Shown in pieces: positions 1,459-13,944 of a DNA stretch of 64,000 nucleotides (position 1 is the first letter of the stretch; every line of letters starts with the position of its first letter). The stretch spans positions 5,351,501 through 5,415,500 of the forward strand of contig NZ_CP107811.1 in assembly GCF_036346105.1 (NCBI RefSeq), read 5' to 3'. Source of the stretch: Streptomyces sp. NBC_00539 (lineage in GTDB: Bacteria > Actinomycetota > Actinomycetes > Streptomycetales > Streptomycetaceae). The position numbers and the translations under genes are program-made. The notes under the pieces were generated by a model, which did no database searches, was not told the DNA's origin, and saw nothing but the letters and a program-made list of their open reading frames with translations.

Positions 1459-2859
1459 TCAGACGCCCTTGCTGACTGAGCTCATGTTGAAGTCCGGGAT
1501 CCGCAGGGCCGGCATCGCGGTGCGGGTGAACCAGTCGCTCCACTCGCGCGGCAGGGTCTTCTCGGTCCGGCCGGCCTCCGTGGCCCGCGACAGCAGGTCC
1601 ACGGGGGACTCGTTGAACCGGAAGTTGTTGACCTCGCCGATGACCTCGCCGTTCTCCACGAGGTACACGCCGTCCCGGGTCAGGCCCGTGAGCAGCAGCG
1701 TCGCCGGGTCGACCTCGCGGATGTACCAGAGGCAGGTCAGCAGCAGGCCGCGCCCCTGGTGGCCGGTGCCCGCCACCATCTCCTCCAGCGACTTCTCCCC
1801 GCCCCCGTCCAGGATCAGGTTCCCGAAGCCGGGGGAGAGCGGGAGCCCGGTCAGGTCCGCGCTGTGCCGGGTCGTCGTCAGCCGGGTGAGCTCGCCGCCG
1901 CTCATCCACTCCGTGGCCGGGACCGGAAGGCCGTTGTCGAACACCGAGGCGTCGTCGCCGGAGCTGTGTGCGATCACGAACGGCGCGGACTCCAGGCCCG
2001 CCGCGTTCGGGTCGCTGCGCAGCGTCAGCGGCAGCCGGGACAGCCGCTCACCGATCCGGGTGCCGCCGCCGGGCTTGGAGAACACCGTCCGGCCCTCCAC
2101 CGCGTCCCGGGCCGCCGCCGACCACATCTGATAGATCAGCAGGTCCGCCACGGCCGTCGGCGGCAGCAGGGTCTCGTACCGCCCGGCCGGCAGGTCGAAG
2201 CGGCGCTCCGCCCATCCCAGGCGTACGGCGAGCTCCGCGTCCAGCGCGGTCGGGTCGACGTCCTTGAAGTCCCGCGTGGCGCGGCCGGCCCACGCCGAGC
2301 GCTGGCGGTCCGGTGACTTCGCGTTCAGCTCCAGCGTGCCGTTCGGCTGGTCGTGGCGCAGCCGCAGCCCCGTCGAGGTGCCGACGTAGGTGGAGACCAG
2401 CTCGTGATTGGCGAAGCCGTACAGCTCCCGGCCGCCCGCGCGGGCCCGGGCGAAGGCCTCGCCGAGGGCCGGGGCGAAGTCCGTGAACACCGCCGAGGAG
2501 GTCTCGGCCGGGGCGTCGGTGAAGTCCGGCGAGGCCGGGGTGCCGGTGACCAGGGGCTGGGCGTCCTCCGCCGGTGCCGCGTTCCGCGCGGCCGCCTCGG
2601 CTGCGCGCACCAGCGGCTCCAGGTCGGCCGCGGTGACGGCGGAGCGCGACACGACCCCCGAGGCCGTGCCCTCCTTGCCGTCGACGGTGGCGATGACCGT
2701 CAGGGTCCGGCCGCGGGTGACGCCGTTGGTGGTGAGCGCGTTGCCCGCCCAGCGCAGGTTGGCCGTCGACTCCTCGTCGGCGATGACGACGCAGCCGTCG
2801 GCGGTGGACAGCTCCAGGGCCCGCTCGACGATCTCGTGGGGCTTGGTACGAACCGACAT
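1459..2859 (-). CDS. pmbA: TldE/PmbA-family metalloprotease partner subunit
   Basis: A 466-residue TldE (PmbA)-like protein, the non-catalytic partner of TldD in a heteromeric zinc protease. In E. coli this pair trims leader peptides such as that of microcin B17 and degrades unfolded peptides. The family signature regions are present across the whole length, but there is no HExxxH zinc motif, as expected for the E subunit. The ATG at 2859 overlaps the TGA of tldD by one base (TGATG), implying translational coupling and equal stoichiometry. No RiPP precursor gene is evident nearby, so the substrate is unknown. Cytoplasmic; no signal peptide. Confidence 0.9.
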
Positions 2860-4382
2860 CAGCGTCCGGCCTCCTGGGTCGTGTTCAAGATGTTCACGTC
2901 ACGGAACAGCGCCGACGGGCAGCCGTGGGACACGGACGCGACCTGGCCCGGCTGTGCCTTGCCGCAGTTGAAGGCGCCGCCCAGCACGTACGTCTGCGGG
3001 CCGCCCACCTTCTCCATCGAGCCCCAGAACTCGGTGGTCGTCGCCTGGTAGGCCACGTCGCGCAGCTGCCCGGCCAGCCTGCCGTTCTCGATCCGGAAGA
3101 ACCGCTGCCCGGTGAACTGGAAGTTGTAGCGCTGCATGTCGATCGACCAGGAGCGGTCGCCGACCACGTAGATCCCGCGCTCCACCCCGCCGATCAGGTC
3201 CTCCGTGGACAGGCCGCCCGGATCGGGCTGGAGCGAGACGTTCGCCATCCGCTGCACCGGCACGTGGCCCGGCGAGTCCGCGAACGCACAGCCGTTGGAG
3301 CGCCCCAGCCCGGTCAGCTTCGCGATCCGCCGGTCCAGCTGGTAGCCGACCAGGGTGCCGTCCTTGACCAGGTCCCAGCTCTGCGCCTCGACGCCCTCGT
3401 CGTCGTAACCGATCGTTGCCAGGCCGTGCTCCGCCGTGCGGTCACCGGTCACGTTCATGATCGAGGAGCCGTACTTGAGCTCGCCCAGCTGGTCGAAGGT
3501 GGCGAAGGAGGTCCCCGCGTACGCCGCCTCGTACCCGAGCGCCCGGTCCAGCTCGGTGGCGTGCCCGATGGACTCGTGGATGGTCAGCCACAGGTTGGAC
3601 GGGTCCACGACCAGGTCGTAGCGTCCGGCCTCCACGCCGGGCGCCCGCATCTTCTCGGCGAGCAGGCCGGGGATCTGCTCCAGCTCGGAGTCCCAGTCCC
3701 AGCCGGTGCCCGTCAGGTACTCCCAGCCGCGCCCGGCCGGCGGGGCGATGGTGCGCATCGAGTCGAACTCGCCGGTGGAGGCGTTGACGGCGACCGCGGT
3801 GAGCTGGGGGTGGATCCGTACCCGCTGCTGGGTGGTGGAGGTGCCGGAGGTGTCGGCGTAGAACTTGTTCTCGTGGACGGCCAGCAGCGACGCGTCGACG
3901 TGTGTCACGCCGTCGGCCGCCAGGAGCCGCGCGCTCCACTCGGCCAGCAGGGCCGCCTTCTCCGCGTCCGGCACCTCGAACGGGTTCACGTCGTAGGCGG
4001 AGATCCAGGTCCGCTCGGCGTGCACCGGCTCCTCGGCGAGCTCCACCCGCTCCGTCGAACCCGCGGCCTTGAGCACCTGCGCCGACAGCTTGGCCATGGC
4101 CACGGCCTGCGAGGCCACCTTCGCCGCGCCGTCCATGGTCAGGTCGACGCCGGAGGCGAAGCCCCAGCTGCCGCCGTGCACCACGCGCACCGCGTAGCCG
4201 AGGTCGGTGGTGTCCGAACTGCCGGAGGGCTTGGCGTCGCGCAGCCGCCAGGAGGCGCTGCGGATCCGCTCCAGCCGGAAGTCGGCGTGGTCGGAGCCCA
4301 GCGCGCGCGCCCGCGCGAGCGCCGCGTCGGCGAGCGCCCGCAAGGGCAGCGCGGTGAAAGCCGCGTCGATGGAATGGGGCAC
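2859..4382 (-). CDS. tldD: TldD-family zinc metalloprotease
   Basis: The 507-residue catalytic subunit of the TldD/TldE protease. The diagnostic HExxxH zinc motif (HESIGH) is at residues 269-274, and a C-terminal Cys in the FNCGKA segment matches the third zinc ligand of the family. The GTG start at 4382 is supported by a GGGAGGAA ribosome-binding site seven to eight bases upstream. It is the first gene of a pair with pmbA, and probably of a run reaching tyrS. It diverges from fabG, with 186 bases between them holding an inverted repeat (4454-4472). Role from family knowledge: proteolysis of unstructured or leader peptides. Confidence 0.93.
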   Translation of the reverse strand: MPHSIDAAFTALPLRALADAALARARALGSDHADFRLERIRSASWRLRDAKPSGSSDTTDLGYAVRVVHGGSWGFASGVDLTMDGAAKVASQAVAMAKLSAQVLKAAGSTERVELAEEPVHAERTWISAYDVNPFEVPDAEKAALLAEWSARLLAADGVTHVDASLLAVHENKFYADTSGTSTTQQRVRIHPQLTAVAVNASTGEFDSMRTIAPPAGRGWEYLTGTGWDWDSELEQIPGLLAEKMRAPGVEAGRYDLVVDPSNLWLTIHESIGHATELDRALGYEAAYAGTSFATFDQLGELKYGSSIMNVTGDRTAEHGLATIGYDDEGVEAQSWDLVKDGTLVGYQLDRRIAKLTGLGRSNGCAFADSPGHVPVQRMANVSLQPDPGGLSTEDLIGGVERGIYVVGDRSWSIDMQRYNFQFTGQRFFRIENGRLAGQLRDVAYQATTTEFWGSMEKVGGPQTYVLGGAFNCGKAQPGQVASVSHGCPSALFRDVNILNTTQEAGR

Positions 4383-4453
4383 GTCAATTCCTCCCGGGGT
4401 CGGGGCCGGTCGCCCCGATCATGTCGCGCCCGGGGCCGTTGTGCACACTTCTT

Positions 4454-4472
4454 TCTGTAGAGACTCCACAGA
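4454..4472. promoter_or_regulatory. Imperfect palindrome between tldD and fabG
   Basis: Sixteen of 19 positions of TCTGTAGAGACTCCACAGA are symmetric. It lies in the shared divergent promoter region, about 70 bases from tldD and 97 from fabG. It looks like a dimeric regulator site, but I do not recognise the regulator. Confidence 0.4.
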
Positions 4473-4568
4473 GGCTGCGGCAAGGCCCTGTCGGGCCCCG
4501 ATTCTCCTTATCCAGGGCGGGACCGATAGGTTTTTGTTCATCACACAGCTAAGCGAAAGGGTGATCCG

Positions 4569-5288
4569 TTGAGCCGCTCGGTTCTCGTCACCGGAGGAAA
4601 CCGGGGCATCGGCCTCGCCATCGCCCGAGTCTTCGCGGAGGCGGGCGACAAGGTCGCGATCACGTACCGGTCCGGCGAGCCGCCGCAGGAGCTCGCCTCG
4701 CTGGGTGTCCTGGCGGTCCGCTGCGACATCACCGACTCGGAGCAGGTGGAGCAGGCCTACAAGGAGATCGAGGACAAGCACGGCGCGGTCGAGGTGCTGG
4801 TGGCCAACGCCGGCATCACCAAGGACACGCTGCTCATGCGGATGTCCGAGGAGGACTTCGCGTCCGTCGTCGACACCAACCTCACCGGCACGTTCCGGGT
4901 CGTCAAGCGGGCCAACCGCGGGATGCTGCGCGCCAAGAAGGGCCGCGTCGTCCTGATCTCCTCGGTCGTCGGTCTCCTCGGAGCGGCCGGCCAGGCCAAC
5001 TACGCCGCCTCGAAGGCCGCCCTCGTGGGCTTCGCCCGCTCGCTCGCCCGTGAGCTCGGATCCCGCAACATCACCTTCAACGTCGTCGCCCCCGGTTTCG
5101 TGGACACCGACATGACGAAGGTGCTCACCGACGAGCAGCGCGCGGCCATCGTGGGCCAGGTGCCCCTGGGCCGCTACGCGCAGCCCGAGGAGGTCGCGGC
5201 GGCCGTGAGCTTCCTGGCGTCCGACAACGCCGCGTACATCACCGGAGCCGTCATTCCCGTAGACGGCGGATTGGGCATGGGTCACTGA
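4569..5288 (+). CDS. fabG: 3-oxoacyl-ACP reductase
   Basis: NADPH-dependent reduction of 3-ketoacyl-ACP in type II fatty acid synthesis. The 239-residue protein is a classical SDR: TGGNRGIG nucleotide motif at residues 8-15, NAG motif, catalytic Ser in the ISSVVG segment, and catalytic YAASK. The start is TTG at 4569, preceded by AAAGGGTG; an ATG start would lose the nucleotide-binding motif. It is followed by fabI after five bases, so the two elongation-cycle reductases are almost certainly co-transcribed. The final residues form the typical GG-terminated tetramer tail. Confidence 0.95.
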   Translation: MSRSVLVTGGNRGIGLAIARVFAEAGDKVAITYRSGEPPQELASLGVLAVRCDITDSEQVEQAYKEIEDKHGAVEVLVANAGITKDTLLMRMSEEDFASVVDTNLTGTFRVVKRANRGMLRAKKGRVVLISSVVGLLGAAGQANYAASKAALVGFARSLARELGSRNITFNVVAPGFVDTDMTKVLTDEQRAAIVGQVPLGRYAQPEEVAAAVSFLASDNAAYITGAVIPVDGGLGMGH

Positions 5289-5293
5289 TCACC

Positions 5294-6064
5294 ATGAGTG
5301 GAATTCTCGAAGGCAAGCGCATCCTCATCACGGGGGTGCTGATGGAGTCGTCCATCGCCTTCCATGCCGCCAAGCTGGCCCAGGAGCAGGGCGCCGAAGT
5401 CATCCTCACGGCGTGGCCGCGCCCCTCGCTGACCGAGCGCATCGCCAAGAAGCTGCCCAAGCCGGTCAAGGTGATCGAGCTCGACGTCACCAACGAGGAG
5501 CACCTGGCCCGCCTGGAGCAGCTCGTCCGCGACGAGCTCGGCGGCCTGGACGGGGTCGTCCACTCCATCGGCTTCGCGCCGCAGGACGCCCTGGGCGGCA
5601 ACTTCCTGAACACCCCGTTCGAGTCGGTCGCCACCGCCATGCACGTCTCGGCGTTCTCGCTGAAGTCGCTCACCATGGCCTGCAAGCCGCTGTTCCCGCA
5701 CGAGGGCGCGGCCGTCGTCGGCCTGACCTTCGACGCGCAGTTCGCCTGGCCGCAGTACGACTGGATGGGCCCGGCGAAGGCCGCGCTGGAGGCCACGAGC
5801 CGCTACCTCGCCCGTGACCTGGGCAAGGAGAACATCCGCTGCAACCTGGTCTCGGCCGGTCCGCTCGGCTCGATGGCCGCGAAGTCCATCCCGGGCTTCT
5901 CCGACCTGGCCGACGTGTGGAACTCCCGCTCCATGCTGGAGTGGGACATGAGCGACCCGGAGCCGACGGGCCGGGCCATCGTGGCCCTGCTCTCCGACTG
6001 GTTCCCGAAGACCACGGGCGAGATCGTCCACGTGGACGGCGGCCTGCACGCCATGGGCGCCTGA
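5294..6064 (+). CDS. fabI: Enoyl-ACP reductase (FabI/InhA type)
   Basis: NADH-dependent enoyl-ACP reductase catalysing the last step of each fatty-acid elongation cycle, and the actinobacterial counterpart of InhA. It has 256 residues. The atypical glycine-rich segment ITGVLMESSIA replaces the usual TGxxxGIG, as in InhA. The catalytic Y-x6-K pair is present (YDWMGPAK). The ATG at 5294 follows the fabG stop by five bases. In mycobacteria the equivalent pair (mabA-inhA) is an operon and isoniazid/triclosan target; only the family match is visible here. A perfect hairpin terminator follows. Confidence 0.95.
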   Translation: MSGILEGKRILITGVLMESSIAFHAAKLAQEQGAEVILTAWPRPSLTERIAKKLPKPVKVIELDVTNEEHLARLEQLVRDELGGLDGVVHSIGFAPQDALGGNFLNTPFESVATAMHVSAFSLKSLTMACKPLFPHEGAAVVGLTFDAQFAWPQYDWMGPAKAALEATSRYLARDLGKENIRCNLVSAGPLGSMAAKSIPGFSDLADVWNSRSMLEWDMSDPEPTGRAIVALLSDWFPKTTGEIVHVDGGLHAMGA

Positions 6065-6085
6065 CCTCCGCCCCCTTACGTCCGT

Positions 6086-6131
6086 ACGGCGGTGGCCGCG
6101 CTTCCCCCCGGGGAGGCGCGGCCACCGCCGT
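6086..6131 (+). terminator. Hairpin terminator of fabG-fabI
   Basis: Perfect 16-base arms at 6086-6101 and 6116-6131 enclose a C/G-rich loop. The hairpin begins 22 bases after the fabI stop and is followed by TTTCGC. Confidence 0.85.
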
Positions 6132-6277
6132 TTCGCGCCTGGCGGGCACGGTTTCGCGGGGCGCTCGATCGGATGTTCGTCGTCTGACCGGATCTTCCCG
6201 AGTCGTAAACCGGGACATGTGCCTGCAAACTGACCGGGCCGGGATCTTCCCGGGTCCTTCGGGGAGGAGGTACGGGC

Positions 6278-6814
6278 GTGGGCGCGAGGCCGAGCCGAGC
6301 GGTATCACTGCTGGTCACCTCGGTGGCCCTGGCCGCCCTCCTGATCCCGGGAGCCGTCGCGCAGCCGGTCCCGGCCGCCGGGGAACAGGGAGTGGGGAGC
6401 CAGGGCATCGGGGGGCGGCCTCCCGAGGCCGTCGAGGGACAGGCCGTCGAAGGCCAGACCGTCGGGGGACAGACCGCCGGGGGACAGGCCCTCGAGGACG
6501 CGGGCCTCGTGGACCTGGCCGCCGTGGACCTGGACGAGATCCCCGCCGAGCCGCCCGTGCCGTCAAAACCGCCCGCCCGTGAGCTGTTCGGCGCCGACTG
6601 CGACACCGTGATCGAGGCCTCGCAGGTGACGGCGTACTGCCACAACAGCTTCCCGCGGACCGACCTGGTGCGGCTGCACGTGGAGTGCGACCGGTGGTGG
6701 GACATCGACGGGGACGGCGCGGCCGTCGCCGTGGGACCCGCCGGCCGGGCCGAGCTCACCGGCCGGTGCTGGAAGGAGGTCCGCTCGGCGTGGGTGAGCC
6801 ACGAGCCGGGCTGA
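6278..6814 (+). CDS. Secreted cysteine-containing protein of unknown function
   Basis: 178 residues with a GTG start at 6278 behind a strong GGGGAGGAGG. An N-terminal Sec signal peptide (hydrophobic core LLVTSVALAALLIPGAVA) appears to end near AQ-P at about residue 28. Residues about 35-70 are a low-complexity run built from degenerate VEGQ/VGGQ units of six to seven residues. The C-terminal domain (from about residue 100) has four cysteines and a compact acidic CDRWWDIDGDG segment, consistent with two disulfides outside the membrane. I do not recognise the family. It is monocistronic and converges on the GntR gene with only eight bases between stops. Confidence 0.72.
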   Translation: MGARPSRAVSLLVTSVALAALLIPGAVAQPVPAAGEQGVGSQGIGGRPPEAVEGQAVEGQTVGGQTAGGQALEDAGLVDLAAVDLDEIPAEPPVPSKPPARELFGADCDTVIEASQVTAYCHNSFPRTDLVRLHVECDRWWDIDGDGAAVAVGPAGRAELTGRCWKEVRSAWVSHEPG

Positions 6815-6822
6815 CCTGACGG

Positions 6823-7494
6823 CTACTGCCCCCGCAGGCAGGCGAACGGATAGCCCGCCGCCTCCGACGCGGCCGTGTCCGCGTCCCCGCGCCGGATCGC
6901 CTCGATCAGCCGGGCGTGGTCCATGTGCGTCTGGGGGGTCAGCTCCGGCCCGACGTCCGCCCGCAGCCAGTCCGCCACCAGGTCGCCCAGGTCCGCGTAC
7001 AGGCCCACCAGCACCTCGTTGTGCGAGGCCGTCACCACCGCCATGTGCAGGCTGACGTCCGCCGCCACGAACAGCTCCGCGTCCCCGCTGCGCCAGGCCT
7101 CCTCGCGCCGGGCCAGCAGCGCGTCCAGCTGGTCGAGGTCCCGTTCGGTGCGGCGCTCCGCCGCCAGCCGGGCCGCCGAGGACTCCAGCGTGGAGCGCAG
7201 CTCGGCGATGTGCCGGGGGTCGGCGCCCGCGAAGCGGCGGTGCATCACCCCGGCCAGCTCGCTGGTGGCGAGGACGTAGGTGCCCGAGCCCTGGCGGATG
7301 TCGAGGAGGCCGTTGTGGGCGAGGGCCCGGACGGCCTCCCGCACCGTGTTGCGGGCGACGCCCAGTAGCTCGACCAGCTCGGGTTCGGTGGGGATCCGGG
7401 CGCCCACGGGCCACTCACCGGAGGTGATCTGGTTCCTGAGCTGGGCGATCACCTGGTCGACGAGCGCGGATCGCCGGGGCGAGGTCAGCGGCAT
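6823..7494 (-). CDS. GntR/FadR-family transcriptional regulator
   Basis: 223-residue regulator with an N-terminal winged helix-turn-helix (about residues 8-70, motif LGVARNTVREAVRALAHNGL) and a C-terminal all-helical FCD ligand-binding domain of the FadR subfamily. The His of SLHMAVV and later acidic residues match the FCD metal site. The ATG at 7494 is chosen for the preceding GGAGAGGA. It is divergent from the MFS gene; a perfect inverted repeat (7557-7571) in the 90-base gap is probably its operator, so it likely represses the transporter and itself until an unknown carboxylate-type ligand binds. Confidence 0.9.
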   Translation of the reverse strand: MPLTSPRRSALVDQVIAQLRNQITSGEWPVGARIPTEPELVELLGVARNTVREAVRALAHNGLLDIRQGSGTYVLATSELAGVMHRRFAGADPRHIAELRSTLESSAARLAAERRTERDLDQLDALLARREEAWRSGDAELFVAADVSLHMAVVTASHNEVLVGLYADLGDLVADWLRADVGPELTPQTHMDHARLIEAIRRGDADTAASEAAGYPFACLRGQ

Positions 7495-10078: not shown

Positions 10079-10939
10079 TCAGCGCCCGTACGCCACCTCG
10101 GGCAGCGCCGCGTCCCGCGCCCGCCACAGCTCGGGGTAGAACCGACGGTGCACCGACGCCCGCAGATGGGCGACGCCGGTGCTGCCGCCCGACCCCGGGC
10201 CACTGCCGATCTGGCGCTCCACGAGGAGCGCGTGGCAGGCCCGCCACTCGGTCCAGGCCTCGTCCAGGTCGACCAGCGCCTCCACCAGCTCGCTCAACTC
10301 CGCGAACTGCGCGGGAGCCCCCTCGGCCCAGGGGCCCGCCAGCCGCTCGTACGCCGCCCGCCGGCCCTCCTCGTCCGCCACAGCGAAACCCGCCTTGCCC
10401 AGGAGCGCCACGAACGCGTCCCACACCGTGGGCTGCGCGAGGCGCTCGCGCAGCCGCTCCTGCTCCGGCCCGCTCAGCCCCGCGATGACCCGGTCCCCGT
10501 ACGCGCCGCGCACCCAGTCGGCGCCGCACAGCACGGCGATCTCGACGTACTGCGCCGACTGCGCGCCACTGCTGCTGCCCAGCACCCCCCGGAAGGCGTG
10601 GAACTCCCGGGGCGGCATCCCGCGCAGCGGCCGGATCCCCGCGATCAGCACCCGGGTGATCCCGACGCACCGTACGAGCCGTACCCGGGCCGTGCGGGCG
10701 TCCCCGTCGAGCATCCGCCCGCGGGCGTCGGCCAGTTCGGCGAGCAGCTGGCCGAACCACAGTTCCTGCACCTGGTGGACGGTGATGAACAGCCGCTCGT
10801 CGTGTGCCCCGTCGGCCAGCGGAACCTGGAGCGACAGCAGTTCGGGCAGCCGCAGGTAGTTCGCGTAGGTGACGCCCTCCGGCTCCGCCGCCCGCTCCGG
10901 GTGGGCCGCCCGCTCCGACGTCCCCACTGCCTCAGTCAT
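10079..10939 (-). CDS. Tryptophan 2,3-dioxygenase family haem protein
   Basis: 286 residues. It shows the TDO pattern: FITVHQVQELWF (Phe51, His55), EFHAFRGVLGSSSG (Phe113, Arg117) and WRACHALLVERQIG, whose His236 corresponds to the proximal haem ligand; a GSGGSTG loop follows. From memory of Xanthomonas TDO (F51, H55, Y113, R117, H240), the substrate pocket is largely kept, with Tyr113 replaced by Phe. The expected reaction is oxidative opening of L-tryptophan to N-formylkynurenine, but related haem enzymes hydroxylate tyrosine derivatives, so substrate is uncertain. The start overlaps the end of the diiron-oxygenase gene by eight bases. It is last in a four-gene operon; no formamidase or kynureninase is in the window. 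Confidence 0.85.
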   Translation of the reverse strand: MTEAVGTSERAAHPERAAEPEGVTYANYLRLPELLSLQVPLADGAHDERLFITVHQVQELWFGQLLAELADARGRMLDGDARTARVRLVRCVGITRVLIAGIRPLRGMPPREFHAFRGVLGSSSGAQSAQYVEIAVLCGADWVRGAYGDRVIAGLSGPEQERLRERLAQPTVWDAFVALLGKAGFAVADEEGRRAAYERLAGPWAEGAPAQFAELSELVEALVDLDEAWTEWRACHALLVERQIGSGPGSGGSTGVAHLRASVHRRFYPELWRARDAALPEVAYGR

Positions 10940-11879
10940 CGCAGTCCTCCGGTGCGCGCAGCCCGTACGCCGCGAACGCCTCGGTGACGCCCGGCAGGTC
11001 GAACGCGTCGACCTGGGCGCACAGCCGCAACGTCGAGCGGGAGATGCTCTGGATGCGGTCCGCGCCCGCGCCGCCGCCGTAACTGTCCTCCAGGACCGCC
11101 TCGACACGGTCGTCGTCCAGGCCCGCCAGCCGCAGGGATGCGCGGACCGGCTCCAGGTCCCAGTCGAGCGCCGCACGGATCATGGCCGGCAGGGCCCGCG
11201 CCGCCGCGATCCGCCGGCCCGGGTCGAGCCGCGCCCACAGTTCCAGGAAGAACGCGGAGAAGAAGCGGTGGTGGCGGCCCTCGTCCTTGGCGTGGTCCCG
11301 CATCAGTTCGCGGACGGTGCTCACCACGGTCGGGTCCTGCGGCACCTCGTTCAACACCGCCGTGATCAGCGTCTCGAAGACCACCGCCTGCAACTGGCCG
11401 GCCAGCACCGGATCGTCGGGCAGCAGGCGCCGCCCGCTGTCCTGGAGGGCGGTGACGAAGCCGCCGTAGTCGACGTCCGGGACCGGGATGCCGGTGACGG
11501 CGGCGACCTGGTCGGCGAGGTCGAGGCTGTACAGGGCGTGGTAGCCCTCGTCGCAGTACACCTTGAAGGCGTCCATCCGCAGCGCCGTGGGGAAGTGCAG
11601 CCCGGAGATGCCGTTGGCGACGGGCTCGGCCGCCCCGTTGACCACCCGGGTCTCCAGGTGCGTCGTGGAGTGCAGGAACTGGTAGAGGTGCCGTACGGAG
11701 ATCTCCCGGATCCGCTCCGGGGCCAGTGCCTTCACCTCCGGATGGGCCAGGTGCGGCACCAGCGCGTCGGGGAAGAAGACCCGCCCCTGCTCGGCCTCGG
11801 CGTGGAAGATCCGCCGTACGCCGCCGCGTACGCCGGCGATCTCGTACCAGCGGTCGAGGGGACCGGGCGCGGCGCTCAT
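10932..11879 (-). CDS. AurF-type diiron N-oxygenase homologue
   Basis: 315 residues, predicted all-helical. Seven potential iron ligands are visible: Glu76, Glu111, His114, Glu169, His196, Glu200 and His203. Their spacing (35, 3, 55, 27, 4, 3) nearly copies that of AurF (E101, E136, H139, E196, H223, E227, H230). AurF oxidises p-aminobenzoate to p-nitrobenzoate, so an amine-oxidising role is plausible; the substrate here is unknown. The ATG at 11879 overlaps the aminotransferase stop (ATGA). The gene sits between an aminotransferase and a TDO homologue, suggesting a small specialised-metabolite pathway. Confidence 0.85.
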   Translation of the reverse strand: MSAAPGPLDRWYEIAGVRGGVRRIFHAEAEQGRVFFPDALVPHLAHPEVKALAPERIREISVRHLYQFLHSTTHLETRVVNGAAEPVANGISGLHFPTALRMDAFKVYCDEGYHALYSLDLADQVAAVTGIPVPDVDYGGFVTALQDSGRRLLPDDPVLAGQLQAVVFETLITAVLNEVPQDPTVVSTVRELMRDHAKDEGRHHRFFSAFFLELWARLDPGRRIAAARALPAMIRAALDWDLEPVRASLRLAGLDDDRVEAVLEDSYGGGAGADRIQSISRSTLRLCAQVDAFDLPGVTEAFAAYGLRAPEDCDD

Positions 11880-13138
11880 GAGGGACCTCCGTTCGCGGGG
11901 GTGTACGGGACAGGGCCCAGGTGGGCGGCGATCCGCCGGACCGCCTCGGCGACCAGCGGCGCGTCGACGGTGTGGCACAGCCGGAACCAGCCGGGCTGCG
12001 GCGACCGGAACGCCCCGCCGGGCAGGATGCTGACCTTCGCGGAGTCCAGCAGCCCCCGCCACAGCCGTTCCTCGGCGTCGAAACCGGTACCGGGCAGCCA
12101 GCGGCGCAGGTCCAGCCACACGGAGAACCCCGCCTCGGCAGGCGCGTACGGGAGGCCGTGCGCCTCCAGCAGGGCGACGAGGTGGCCGTACGAGGCGGCG
12201 AGCCGCTCCCGGCCGGCCTTGAGGAAGCCGGCCGCCCACTCCTGATCGGCCAGCAGGGCGGCCAGCGTCTCCTGCGTGGCCGTGGAGACGGGTGCGAAGT
12301 AGGCCATCGCGCGGGCCGCTGCCAGGACCTGCGGGGCGCGGGTGTGCAGGACACCGGTCTTCAAGCCGGGCAACCCGAAGTCCTTGGCGAAGCCCCATAC
12401 GACGTGGGTGCGCCCGGCCCAGTGCGGGTTCACGGCCGGGTCGGCGGCGCTGGTGAAGCCCCGGGCGCCGAAGACGGCGTGCGCGTAGATCTCGTCGGAG
12501 ATCAGGTCCACGTCGTGCGCGCGCACCACCCGCAGCAGCTCGGCGAGCACCTGCGGCGGGTGCACCTCCCCGATGGGGTTGGAGGGGGAGGACAGGGCGA
12601 CCGCGCGGACCGTCGTACCGGCGGACCGTGCCTCGCGCAGTGCCCTGTCGACGGCCGCGGCGCTCAGCCGGAAGCCGTCGCCGGGGGAGAGCGGCGCGGG
12701 CAGGATCCGGGCGCCGGAGCGCCCGCCGAGATCGGTGTCGAAGGCCCCGTAGTAGGGGGCGGGCACCACGATCGCCTCGCCCGGATCGCACAGGACGGAG
12801 GCGATCGCGTCCAGTGCCCCGGTCGCCCCGCTGATCACCACCAGGTCCTGGGCGTCCAGCGGCGTACCGAAGGTCCCGGACAGTAGGGCGGCGACCCGCT
12901 CGCGCAGTTCGTCGGTGCCGTGCAGCGGGGCGTAGCGGGCCGCGCCCTCCCGCATCGTCGGCAGCCCGGCCAGCCGGGCTTCGAGCAGGTCCCACAGCAG
13001 GCGGTTCTCGGCGGTACCCAGGTTGAGGTAGCCGTCCGGGCGCAGGCGGGCGTCGTACGGCTCGGCCTCGGCGCGGAAGTGCGCCTCGGCGATGGCGGGG
13101 GTGTCGGCGAGGAGCCGGGCGGCCTGGCGGGAAACCAT
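11876..13138 (-). CDS. PLP-dependent class I/II aminotransferase (ACC-synthase-like)
   Basis: 420 residues, fold type I. The N-terminal LNLGTAENRL resembles the GLAEN motif of 1-aminocyclopropane-1-carboxylate synthases. PAPYYGAF, NPIG and SDEIYA (Asp215, Tyr218) contact PLP, and AKDFGLPG carries the Schiff-base Lys252. The family's GFR after the lysine reads GLKTG here. It could act as an aminotransferase, a beta/gamma-lyase-type enzyme or an ACC synthase; sequence alone does not decide. The ATG start overlaps the SDR stop by one base, and its stop overlaps the next start, so the operon is tightly coupled. Confidence 0.88.
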   Translation of the reverse strand: MVSRQAARLLADTPAIAEAHFRAEAEPYDARLRPDGYLNLGTAENRLLWDLLEARLAGLPTMREGAARYAPLHGTDELRERVAALLSGTFGTPLDAQDLVVISGATGALDAIASVLCDPGEAIVVPAPYYGAFDTDLGGRSGARILPAPLSPGDGFRLSAAAVDRALREARSAGTTVRAVALSSPSNPIGEVHPPQVLAELLRVVRAHDVDLISDEIYAHAVFGARGFTSAADPAVNPHWAGRTHVVWGFAKDFGLPGLKTGVLHTRAPQVLAAARAMAYFAPVSTATQETLAALLADQEWAAGFLKAGRERLAASYGHLVALLEAHGLPYAPAEAGFSVWLDLRRWLPGTGFDAEERLWRGLLDSAKVSILPGGAFRSPQPGWFRLCHTVDAPLVAEAVRRIAAHLGPVPYTPANGGPS

Positions 13139-13944
13139 CAGGCCCTCCCGCTGTCGACACCGGCGGCGGTCAGCAGGCCGGGATTGACGCCGAGGCCCAT
13201 GGAGGCGTCGATGACGGCGCCGTGCAGGGCGGCGGACTGGTCACCGGCCAGCCACCACACGAACTCCGCTATCTCCTCGGGGCGGATCATGCGCGAGCCG
13301 GGCAGTCGTGCGGTGAGCGCGGCGCGCTCCTCGGGCGTCAGCTTGTCCAGGGTGCTGGCGTGGAACATGTGGGTCTCGACCACGCCCGGGCACAGGGCGA
13401 AGACGTGGACCGGGGCGTGCACCAGTTCGGCGGCGAGGTGGCGGGTCAGATAGGTCAGCGCGGCCTTGCTCATCCCGTCGGCGGGGTGGAAGCCCGGGAA
13501 CTGGAAGATCCCGCCGCCCACGCTGGAAATGTTGACGATCTTCCCGAACCCGCGCTCCAGCATGCCCGGGAGCAGCCCGTCGACGAGCCACAGCGGGCCC
13601 ACCGCGTTGATCTGGAAGAAGGCCGACGCCTTGGTGTGCCGGGGGCCGTCGGTGTGCTGCTCGATGGTCTTGGAGCCGACGGCCGCGTTGTTCACCAGGA
13701 CGTCGACGGGGCCGGGCAGCCGGTCCAGCAGCCGCTCGTGATCCTCCCAGTCGCCCTGGGCGAAGGGGAACGCCTCCACCTTGGCCCGGCCGGTGAGGGC
13801 CAGCTCCTGTACGAGTTCCTCGGCCCGGTCCCGCCCATGACGGTAGGTGAACCAGACCGTCCAGTCTTCTTCGCGGGCGAACCTCTCCACGCAGGACCGG
13901 CCGATACCGCCCGACCCCCCTGTGATGAGCACGCTTCGAGTCAT
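13138..13944 (-). CDS. SDR-fold protein lacking the catalytic tyrosine
   Basis: 268-residue short-chain dehydrogenase/reductase, first gene of the operon. The ATG at 13944 follows AAGGGGAG. The N-terminal TGGSGGIG (residues 8-15), the NNAAVG segment and the serine of NISSVGG are present. At the position of the catalytic Tyr in Y-x3-K the sequence reads D-G-M-S-K, so Tyr is replaced by Asp while Lys remains. Either it is a non-canonical oxidoreductase, or it binds NAD(P) without classical catalysis. An 18-base-spaced inverted repeat lies just upstream (13980-14015). Confidence 0.85.
   Translation of the reverse strand: MTRSVLITGGSGGIGRSCVERFAREEDWTVWFTYRHGRDRAEELVQELALTGRAKVEAFPFAQGDWEDHERLLDRLPGPVDVLVNNAAVGSKTIEQHTDGPRHTKASAFFQINAVGPLWLVDGLLPGMLERGFGKIVNISSVGGGIFQFPGFHPADGMSKAALTYLTRHLAAELVHAPVHVFALCPGVVETHMFHASTLDKLTPEERAALTARLPGSRMIRPEEIAEFVWWLAGDQSAALHGAVIDASMGLGVNPGLLTAAGVDSGRA

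Follow-up and report, generated by a model that had tools for sequence, protein, structure and literature searches.

Four overlapping genes on the minus strand, at positions 10079-13944 of a 64,000-nucleotide stretch of the Streptomyces sp. NBC_00539 genome (hereafter the window), raise the question of what a short-chain dehydrogenase/reductase (SDR) fold protein, an ACC-synthase-like PLP enzyme, an AurF-type diiron enzyme and a tryptophan 2,3-dioxygenase (TDO) homologue could make together. The answer favoured here, at somewhat better than even odds (roughly 55 %), is a dedicated specialised-metabolism set that would first make kynurenine and then modify it; the product would be small and N-oxygenated, either an amino acid or a heterocycle.

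The individual features are collected in Table 1. The junctions, as read from the letters, were TGATG between the SDR and PLP genes, ATGA between the PLP and AurF genes and an overlap of eight bases between the AurF and TDO genes. A codon-usage gene caller recovered all four, placing the starts of SDR and TDO later. Reading frames, letters and gene caller thus confirmed the overlapping layout given in the first-pass annotation, and Pfam and structure matches agreed with its four family labels. In the gene list a SixA-like phosphatase gene lies on one side of the operon and a serB-like gene on the other; fabG/fabI-like genes are close by. These SixA-like and serB-like neighbours therefore place it in ordinary chromosome here, outside any large synthase cluster. 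The inverted repeat upstream of the SDR start is a possible operator: aligned upstream regions displayed an exact copy of TTCTAGCGA/TCGCTAGAA in the window genome only and a variant form in locus L043, and none was found in L031, L044 and L046.

Table 1. Features of the operon region (window positions) and residues assigned by alignment
Feature	Position	Strand	Size	Pfam match	Key residues or motifs
SDR-fold protein (first gene)	13138..13944	-	268 aa	PF00106, 114.8 bits	NAD(P) motif TGGSGGIG; N113, S141, D156, K160; catalytic Tyr replaced by Asp156
ACC-synthase-like fold-type-I PLP enzyme	11876..13138	-	420 aa	PF00155, 210.4 bits	K252 (PLP lysine), R386, D215, Y218
AurF-family ferritin-like diiron enzyme	10932..11879	-	315 aa	PF11583, 63.1 bits	Metal ligands E76, E111, H114, E169, H196, E200, H203
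Tryptophan 2,3-dioxygenase (TDO) homologue	10079..10939	-	286 aa	PF03301, 141 bits	F51, H55, R117, haem ligand H236; loops SSSG and GSGGS
Inverted repeat TTCTAGCGA-N18-TCGCTAGAA	13980..14015	not assigned	9-base arms		

Distribution and linkage of the four genes

A search of 296 Streptomyces genomes with the AurF-type protein (E 1e-10 or better) detected homologues in 32 of them, of which only five, the window genome included, displayed at least 68 % identity. PLP and TDO genes adjoined in all five and the SDR gene in four; in the fifth its place lay past the contig end. An AurF-anchored scan at species level, with one genome per species, gathered 24 loci, which were not independent of the genus set (L032 is the same place as L048, and L033 the same as L052). 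Their hosts belonged to Streptomyces, Kitasatospora, Allonocardiopsis, Kutzneria, Actinokineospora, Sphaerisporangium, Amycolatopsis, Actinophytocola, Catellatospora and Actinoplanes, with one Thermomonosporaceae MAG. All four genes were encountered on one strand in 20 of these loci, representing nine actinobacterial genera. Three of the four exceptions (L045, L052 and L057) were cut by contig ends, and the last was L061.

Locus L061 displayed an AurF gene and a partial PLP gene, no TDO in 5.6 kb and an apparent carrier-domain fragment alongside. It may be a real exception, a decayed copy or a MAG error.

Because the species-level scan had been anchored on AurF, the search was repeated with the PLP enzyme, against the 296 genus genomes at E 1e-50 and against 394 genomes of the class at E 1e-80. 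The genus search returned the same five genomes as AurF had, with AurF and TDO genes adjoining in each and the SDR gene as well, except for one contig-end cut. In the class search five out of 394 genomes matched: the window genome and four more, each of which displayed the full SDR-PLP-AurF-TDO order followed by a hydrolase gene. Among 41 relatives, some of them shared with the 296-genome search, the window genome was the sole match. At the thresholds used, the PLP enzyme was not found outside the four-gene set in the genus and class genomes. Distance matrices of the four proteins correlated at 0.83-0.93 over 22 loci, a range to which host kinship contributes; L034, L052, L061 and loci without one of the genes were left out of this comparison.

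The four genes are a conserved unit. Being neighbours by chance, without joint function, is a reading to which L061 lends its AurF gene without TDO, but it is extremely improbable. When loci were grouped by eye into chromosomal settings, SDR, PLP and AurF genes were linked in 14 out of 15, and in L063 and L066 the order had changed to AurF-TDO-SDR-PLP with the genes still together, so that linkage outlives order. The same four genes stand together in relatives, which is therefore not chance, and the idea was rejected with both the AurF- and the PLP-anchored searches recovering the linked set. The co-occurrence proposed in the first-pass annotation was thereby borne out, and the scattered, unlinked arrangement that it had named as evidence to the contrary was looked for in relatives, where the genes were linked (20/24 loci and 4/4 class genomes).

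TDO homologue and formamidase-like hydrolases

The TDO homologue exceeded the PF03301 cut-off of 34.9 bits. With 169.9 bits it remained below the 390.7 of the NCBIfam equivalog TIGR03036 and was not filed as TDO proper. Residue positions were set by alignment to the Xanthomonas TDO chain, and the roles of the tryptophan-pocket residues are in part our assumption. F51 and R117 were kept in all 25 rows, H55 in 24 out of 25 and the haem ligand H236 in all 24 readable rows, while S124 was kept in 20 rows and replaced by Asn in five; the four class genomes kept all five residues. L057 (contig end) and L061 gave no row, and L045 gave no residue at H236. One stop each in the rows of L034, L049, L052 and L053 was read as a natural stop overrun by the alignment close to its end, since gene calls at those loci are shorter. 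Given the score under the equivalog cut-off and the Asn at S124 in five rows, the predicted substrate may possibly be an indole other than tryptophan.

Maremycin biosynthesis provides another TDO homologue of secondary metabolism, MarE, which is described as a monooxygenase carrying DATG and SLGGR loops (PMC11904535). The operon proteins keep loops of the dioxygenase type, unlike MarE: DATG was absent from 25 out of 25 rows and SLGGR from all 24 readable ones. MarE-type monooxygenation was set aside as first choice on account of these TDO-type loops. Alternatively, the TDO homologue could, like MarE, mono-oxygenate an analogue of tryptophan or act on some other substrate, and the diiron enzyme could oxidise an amine that is not the aniline of kynurenine. 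This would agree with the score under the equivalog cut-off, and MarE documents functional change among TDO homologues (PMC11904535). Loop composition and the formamidase linkage described below both speak against this explanation, which is considered unlikely. A third TDO homologue of the window genome (L072, G000:C1:6935342-6936136) belongs neither to the catabolic genes nor to this operon; SDR, PLP and AurF genes of this set were absent from the 20 kb read around it.

An alpha/beta hydrolase of two subtypes recurred beside the operon in nine settings, and a transporter family in three. Kynurenine-formamidase-like hydrolase genes were located within 10 kb in 11 of the 24 loci, in ten of them as direct neighbour. 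The hydrolase was the fifth gene, directly after TDO, in all four class genomes, with an overlap of four bases in L084 and L085 (starts from scripted gene calls). In the other 13 loci and in the window, the search covered 10 kb or, where shorter, the sequence as far as the contig end, and no formamidase-like gene was found. Subtype one was 48 % identical to a hydrolase of the window genome and matched one place in that whole genome; there the hydrolase follows TDO and kynureninase in a separate run, of which the kynureninase scored above its cut-off. Subtype two matched a lipase, a putative esterase and, third, the kynurenine formamidase 4e11 in the PDB, with weaker esterases below; a 90-residue query from it gave no match in the window genome. 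As Pfam and NCBIfam attributed only broad hydrolase or lipase family names, the formamidase assignment is drawn from the genomic context together with the 4e11 match. In a control, the hydrolase queries matched two out of nine other loci, in the family of the first subtype and at 31-38 % identity; the hydrolase family is therefore not exclusive to the operon.

Linkage of the hydrolase in relatives and its presence in trans in the window genome make kynurenine the likely intermediate. The route probably runs through kynurenine, judging from the genes present, and the window genome would borrow the formamidase from its catabolic genes. With the start of the kynurenine pathway the operon shares a TDO homologue with tryptophan-pocket residues, and many of its relatives have a formamidase-like hydrolase linked to it; the operon differs in having no kynureninase and in adding an N-oxygenase-type enzyme, an ACC-synthase-like PLP enzyme and an SDR without its tyrosine. 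Across 30 operon loci and the whole 64 kb of the window, the only kynureninase match was a weak partial one (29 %) in L061. The first-pass annotation had argued from missing formamidase and kynureninase genes against simple tryptophan catabolism. Its formamidase argument fell with the hydrolase linked in 11/24 loci, fifth in 4/4 class genomes and available in trans in the window genome, while the lack of kynureninase that it noted held. Also supported were a conserved operon, the absence of a described cluster among the literature matches listed, and N-oxygenation of an aromatic amino acid as the chemistry that fits best.

An accessory degradation route for tryptophan or kynurenine would begin with just these activities, TDO and formamidase, and a catabolic TDO-kynureninase-hydrolase run was indeed seen. 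The window genome, however, already possesses that run, and the operon has no kynureninase to match it. The set is moreover rare (5/296 and 5/394 genomes), and an N-oxygenase is superfluous for tryptophan or kynurenine degradation. This explanation is accordingly improbable.

AurF-type, PLP and SDR enzymes

The AurF-type enzyme scored above the PF11583 cut-off of 29.6 bits and far below that of the 4-aminobenzoate N-oxygenase model NF045603 (26.3 versus 620). All seven metal ligands were kept in 27 out of 27 rows and in the four class genomes; the seventh, a histidine, is characteristic of N-oxygenases of this fold, as stated in PMC13061610. In a tree of 56 rows all 27 operon members fell on one side of a branch with support of 100/100. 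The operon enzyme thus has the fold family and the complete ligand set of the diiron oxygenases AurF, CmlI and Dob3, but lies far under the cut-off for AurF proper and on a separate branch. It is predicted to be an amine N-oxygenase of the ferritin-like diiron kind.

Cousins of this enzyme, 48-51 % identical, were encountered in the same genus (L035-L041) adjoining SbnA-like and carbamoyltransferase-like genes. SbnB-like genes were near them in L035-L038 and, under looser grouping, in L039 and L040. Models were checked for L035 only, where SbnA- and SbnB-family genes were above cut-off, with a carbamoyltransferase-like gene. These cousins are similar diiron enzymes that stand beside enzymes for a free diamino acid; TDO or SDR of the present set was absent from L035-L042, and only a 26 % identical aminotransferase was found, in L035 and L036. 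Their cluster possibly encodes an N-oxygenated carbamoyl-diaminopropionate pathway. A link to alanosine was rejected, as the cluster of L035 has SbnA/SbnB families and the alanosine enzymes named in PMC11705231 are others. A second AurF homologue was located 12-17 kb away in G007, G014, G097 and G281.

Of known systems, GntC and plant ACC synthases came nearest to the PLP enzyme. GntC was the best NCBIfam match (NF041364, 141.4 bits, under the cut-off of 415), a model named for a gamma-hydroxy amino acid substrate (gamma-hydroxyarginine cyclodehydratase). ACC synthases were the best solved structures, with 233.7 bits for 1iax (PDB). The predicted active-site residues K252, D215, Y218 and the carboxylate arginine R386 were kept in 24 out of 24 rows and in the four class genomes, the partial genes of L052 and L061 being left out. 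In the column that we take to hold the SAM-pocket active-site tyrosine of ACC synthase, 22 out of 24 rows displayed leucine (Leu72) and two proline, with leucine in 4/4 class genomes. A further difference was Lys260, where the aligned ACC synthase has arginine.

Should the PLP enzyme be a plain kynurenine aminotransferase, N-hydroxykynurenine would undergo transamination and ring closure to 1-hydroxy-4-quinolone-2-carboxylate (N-hydroxykynurenic acid), and the SDR would have a later or other role. Membership of aminotransferase class I/II, with PLP lysine and carboxylate arginine kept throughout, is consistent with this, and no ketone reduction would be required, which fits an SDR without its tyrosine. 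The enzyme is, however, far closer to ACC synthases than to kynurenine aminotransferases in the PDB (233.7 versus 44.5-52.4 bits), and no clear role would be left for the SDR, present in 20/24 loci and off the contig in some others. We regard this alternative as rather unlikely.

In the SDR, aspartate occupied the place of the catalytic tyrosine (YxxxK to DxxxK) in 28 out of 28 rows, from the window and 27 relatives (24/24 and, for the class genomes, 4/4). The TGxxxGxG cofactor motif was displayed by 23 out of 24 rows, that of L034 being unreadable there. The best 50 fold matches listed for the predicted structure were ordinary SDRs; SimC7 was not among these 50, which excludes nothing. SimC7 is another SDR ketoreductase without the catalytic tyrosine, and aspartate put at the tyrosine site abolished its activity, according to PMC5039031. 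Since the tyrosine is missing and aspartate kills SimC7 activity, ketone reduction by the operon SDR is doubtful.

Proposed route, product and setting

The kynurenine-modifying route favoured here can be laid out in four steps. As supported by sequence, the TDO homologue would open tryptophan to N-formylkynurenine. As supported by linkage, a formamidase would then release kynurenine; for the window genome this enzyme would be supplied in trans by the catabolic operon. The AurF-type enzyme would N-oxygenate the freed ring amine to a hydroxylamine, nitroso or nitro group. In the weakest step, which could precede or follow N-oxygenation, SDR and PLP enzyme would jointly modify the side chain. In its simplest form the C4 ketone would be reduced to a gamma-hydroxyl, subsequently eliminated from the PLP adduct; this gamma-chemistry is proposed because the PLP enzyme resembles GntC and ACC synthases. 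The end product might be quinoline-2-carboxylate N-oxide, for example, with the hydroxylamine closing the ring on C2.

Tentatively, and with a clearly smaller share of belief, the operon may edit the tryptophan skeleton itself: the indole would be opened, its nitrogen hydroxylated and the ring re-closed to give another heterocycle. Ring closure of an o-hydroxylaminophenyl ketone to 2,1-benzisoxazole is a ready reaction. The product could accordingly be 3-(2,1-benzisoxazol-3-yl)alanine, a close tryptophan mimic, or, via C2, a chelator of the quinoline N-oxide type. In that case the side chain would be handled in a new way by two enzymes, the Asp-Lys SDR without its tyrosine and the ACC-synthase-like protein.

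If the kynurenine route is correct, a compact set of about five enzymes would lead from tryptophan to an N-oxygenated kynurenine product across several actinobacterial families. There being no large synthase as flag, such a route could escape cluster finders built around these synthases. It offers a small, self-contained gene set, a diiron enzyme whose substrate is predicted to be an amino acid, and a family of SDRs with aspartate for the catalytic tyrosine in every copy examined. The enzyme families are all known ones; what is new to us is their combination, together with the formamidase linked to it and an SDR that has Asp for Tyr. No description of the gene set or its chemistry was found among the literature matches listed, in line with the first-pass annotation, which knew of no described pathway with this combination. 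Since these matches covered only a minority of subscription journals, the lack of a published description among them is a weak sign of novelty.

In Actinokineospora inagensis (L057, positions 1651-7065) the operon was preceded by genes for an AMP-binding enzyme and a carrier-like protein, together with small genes, a hint that in this species a carrier may take up the product.
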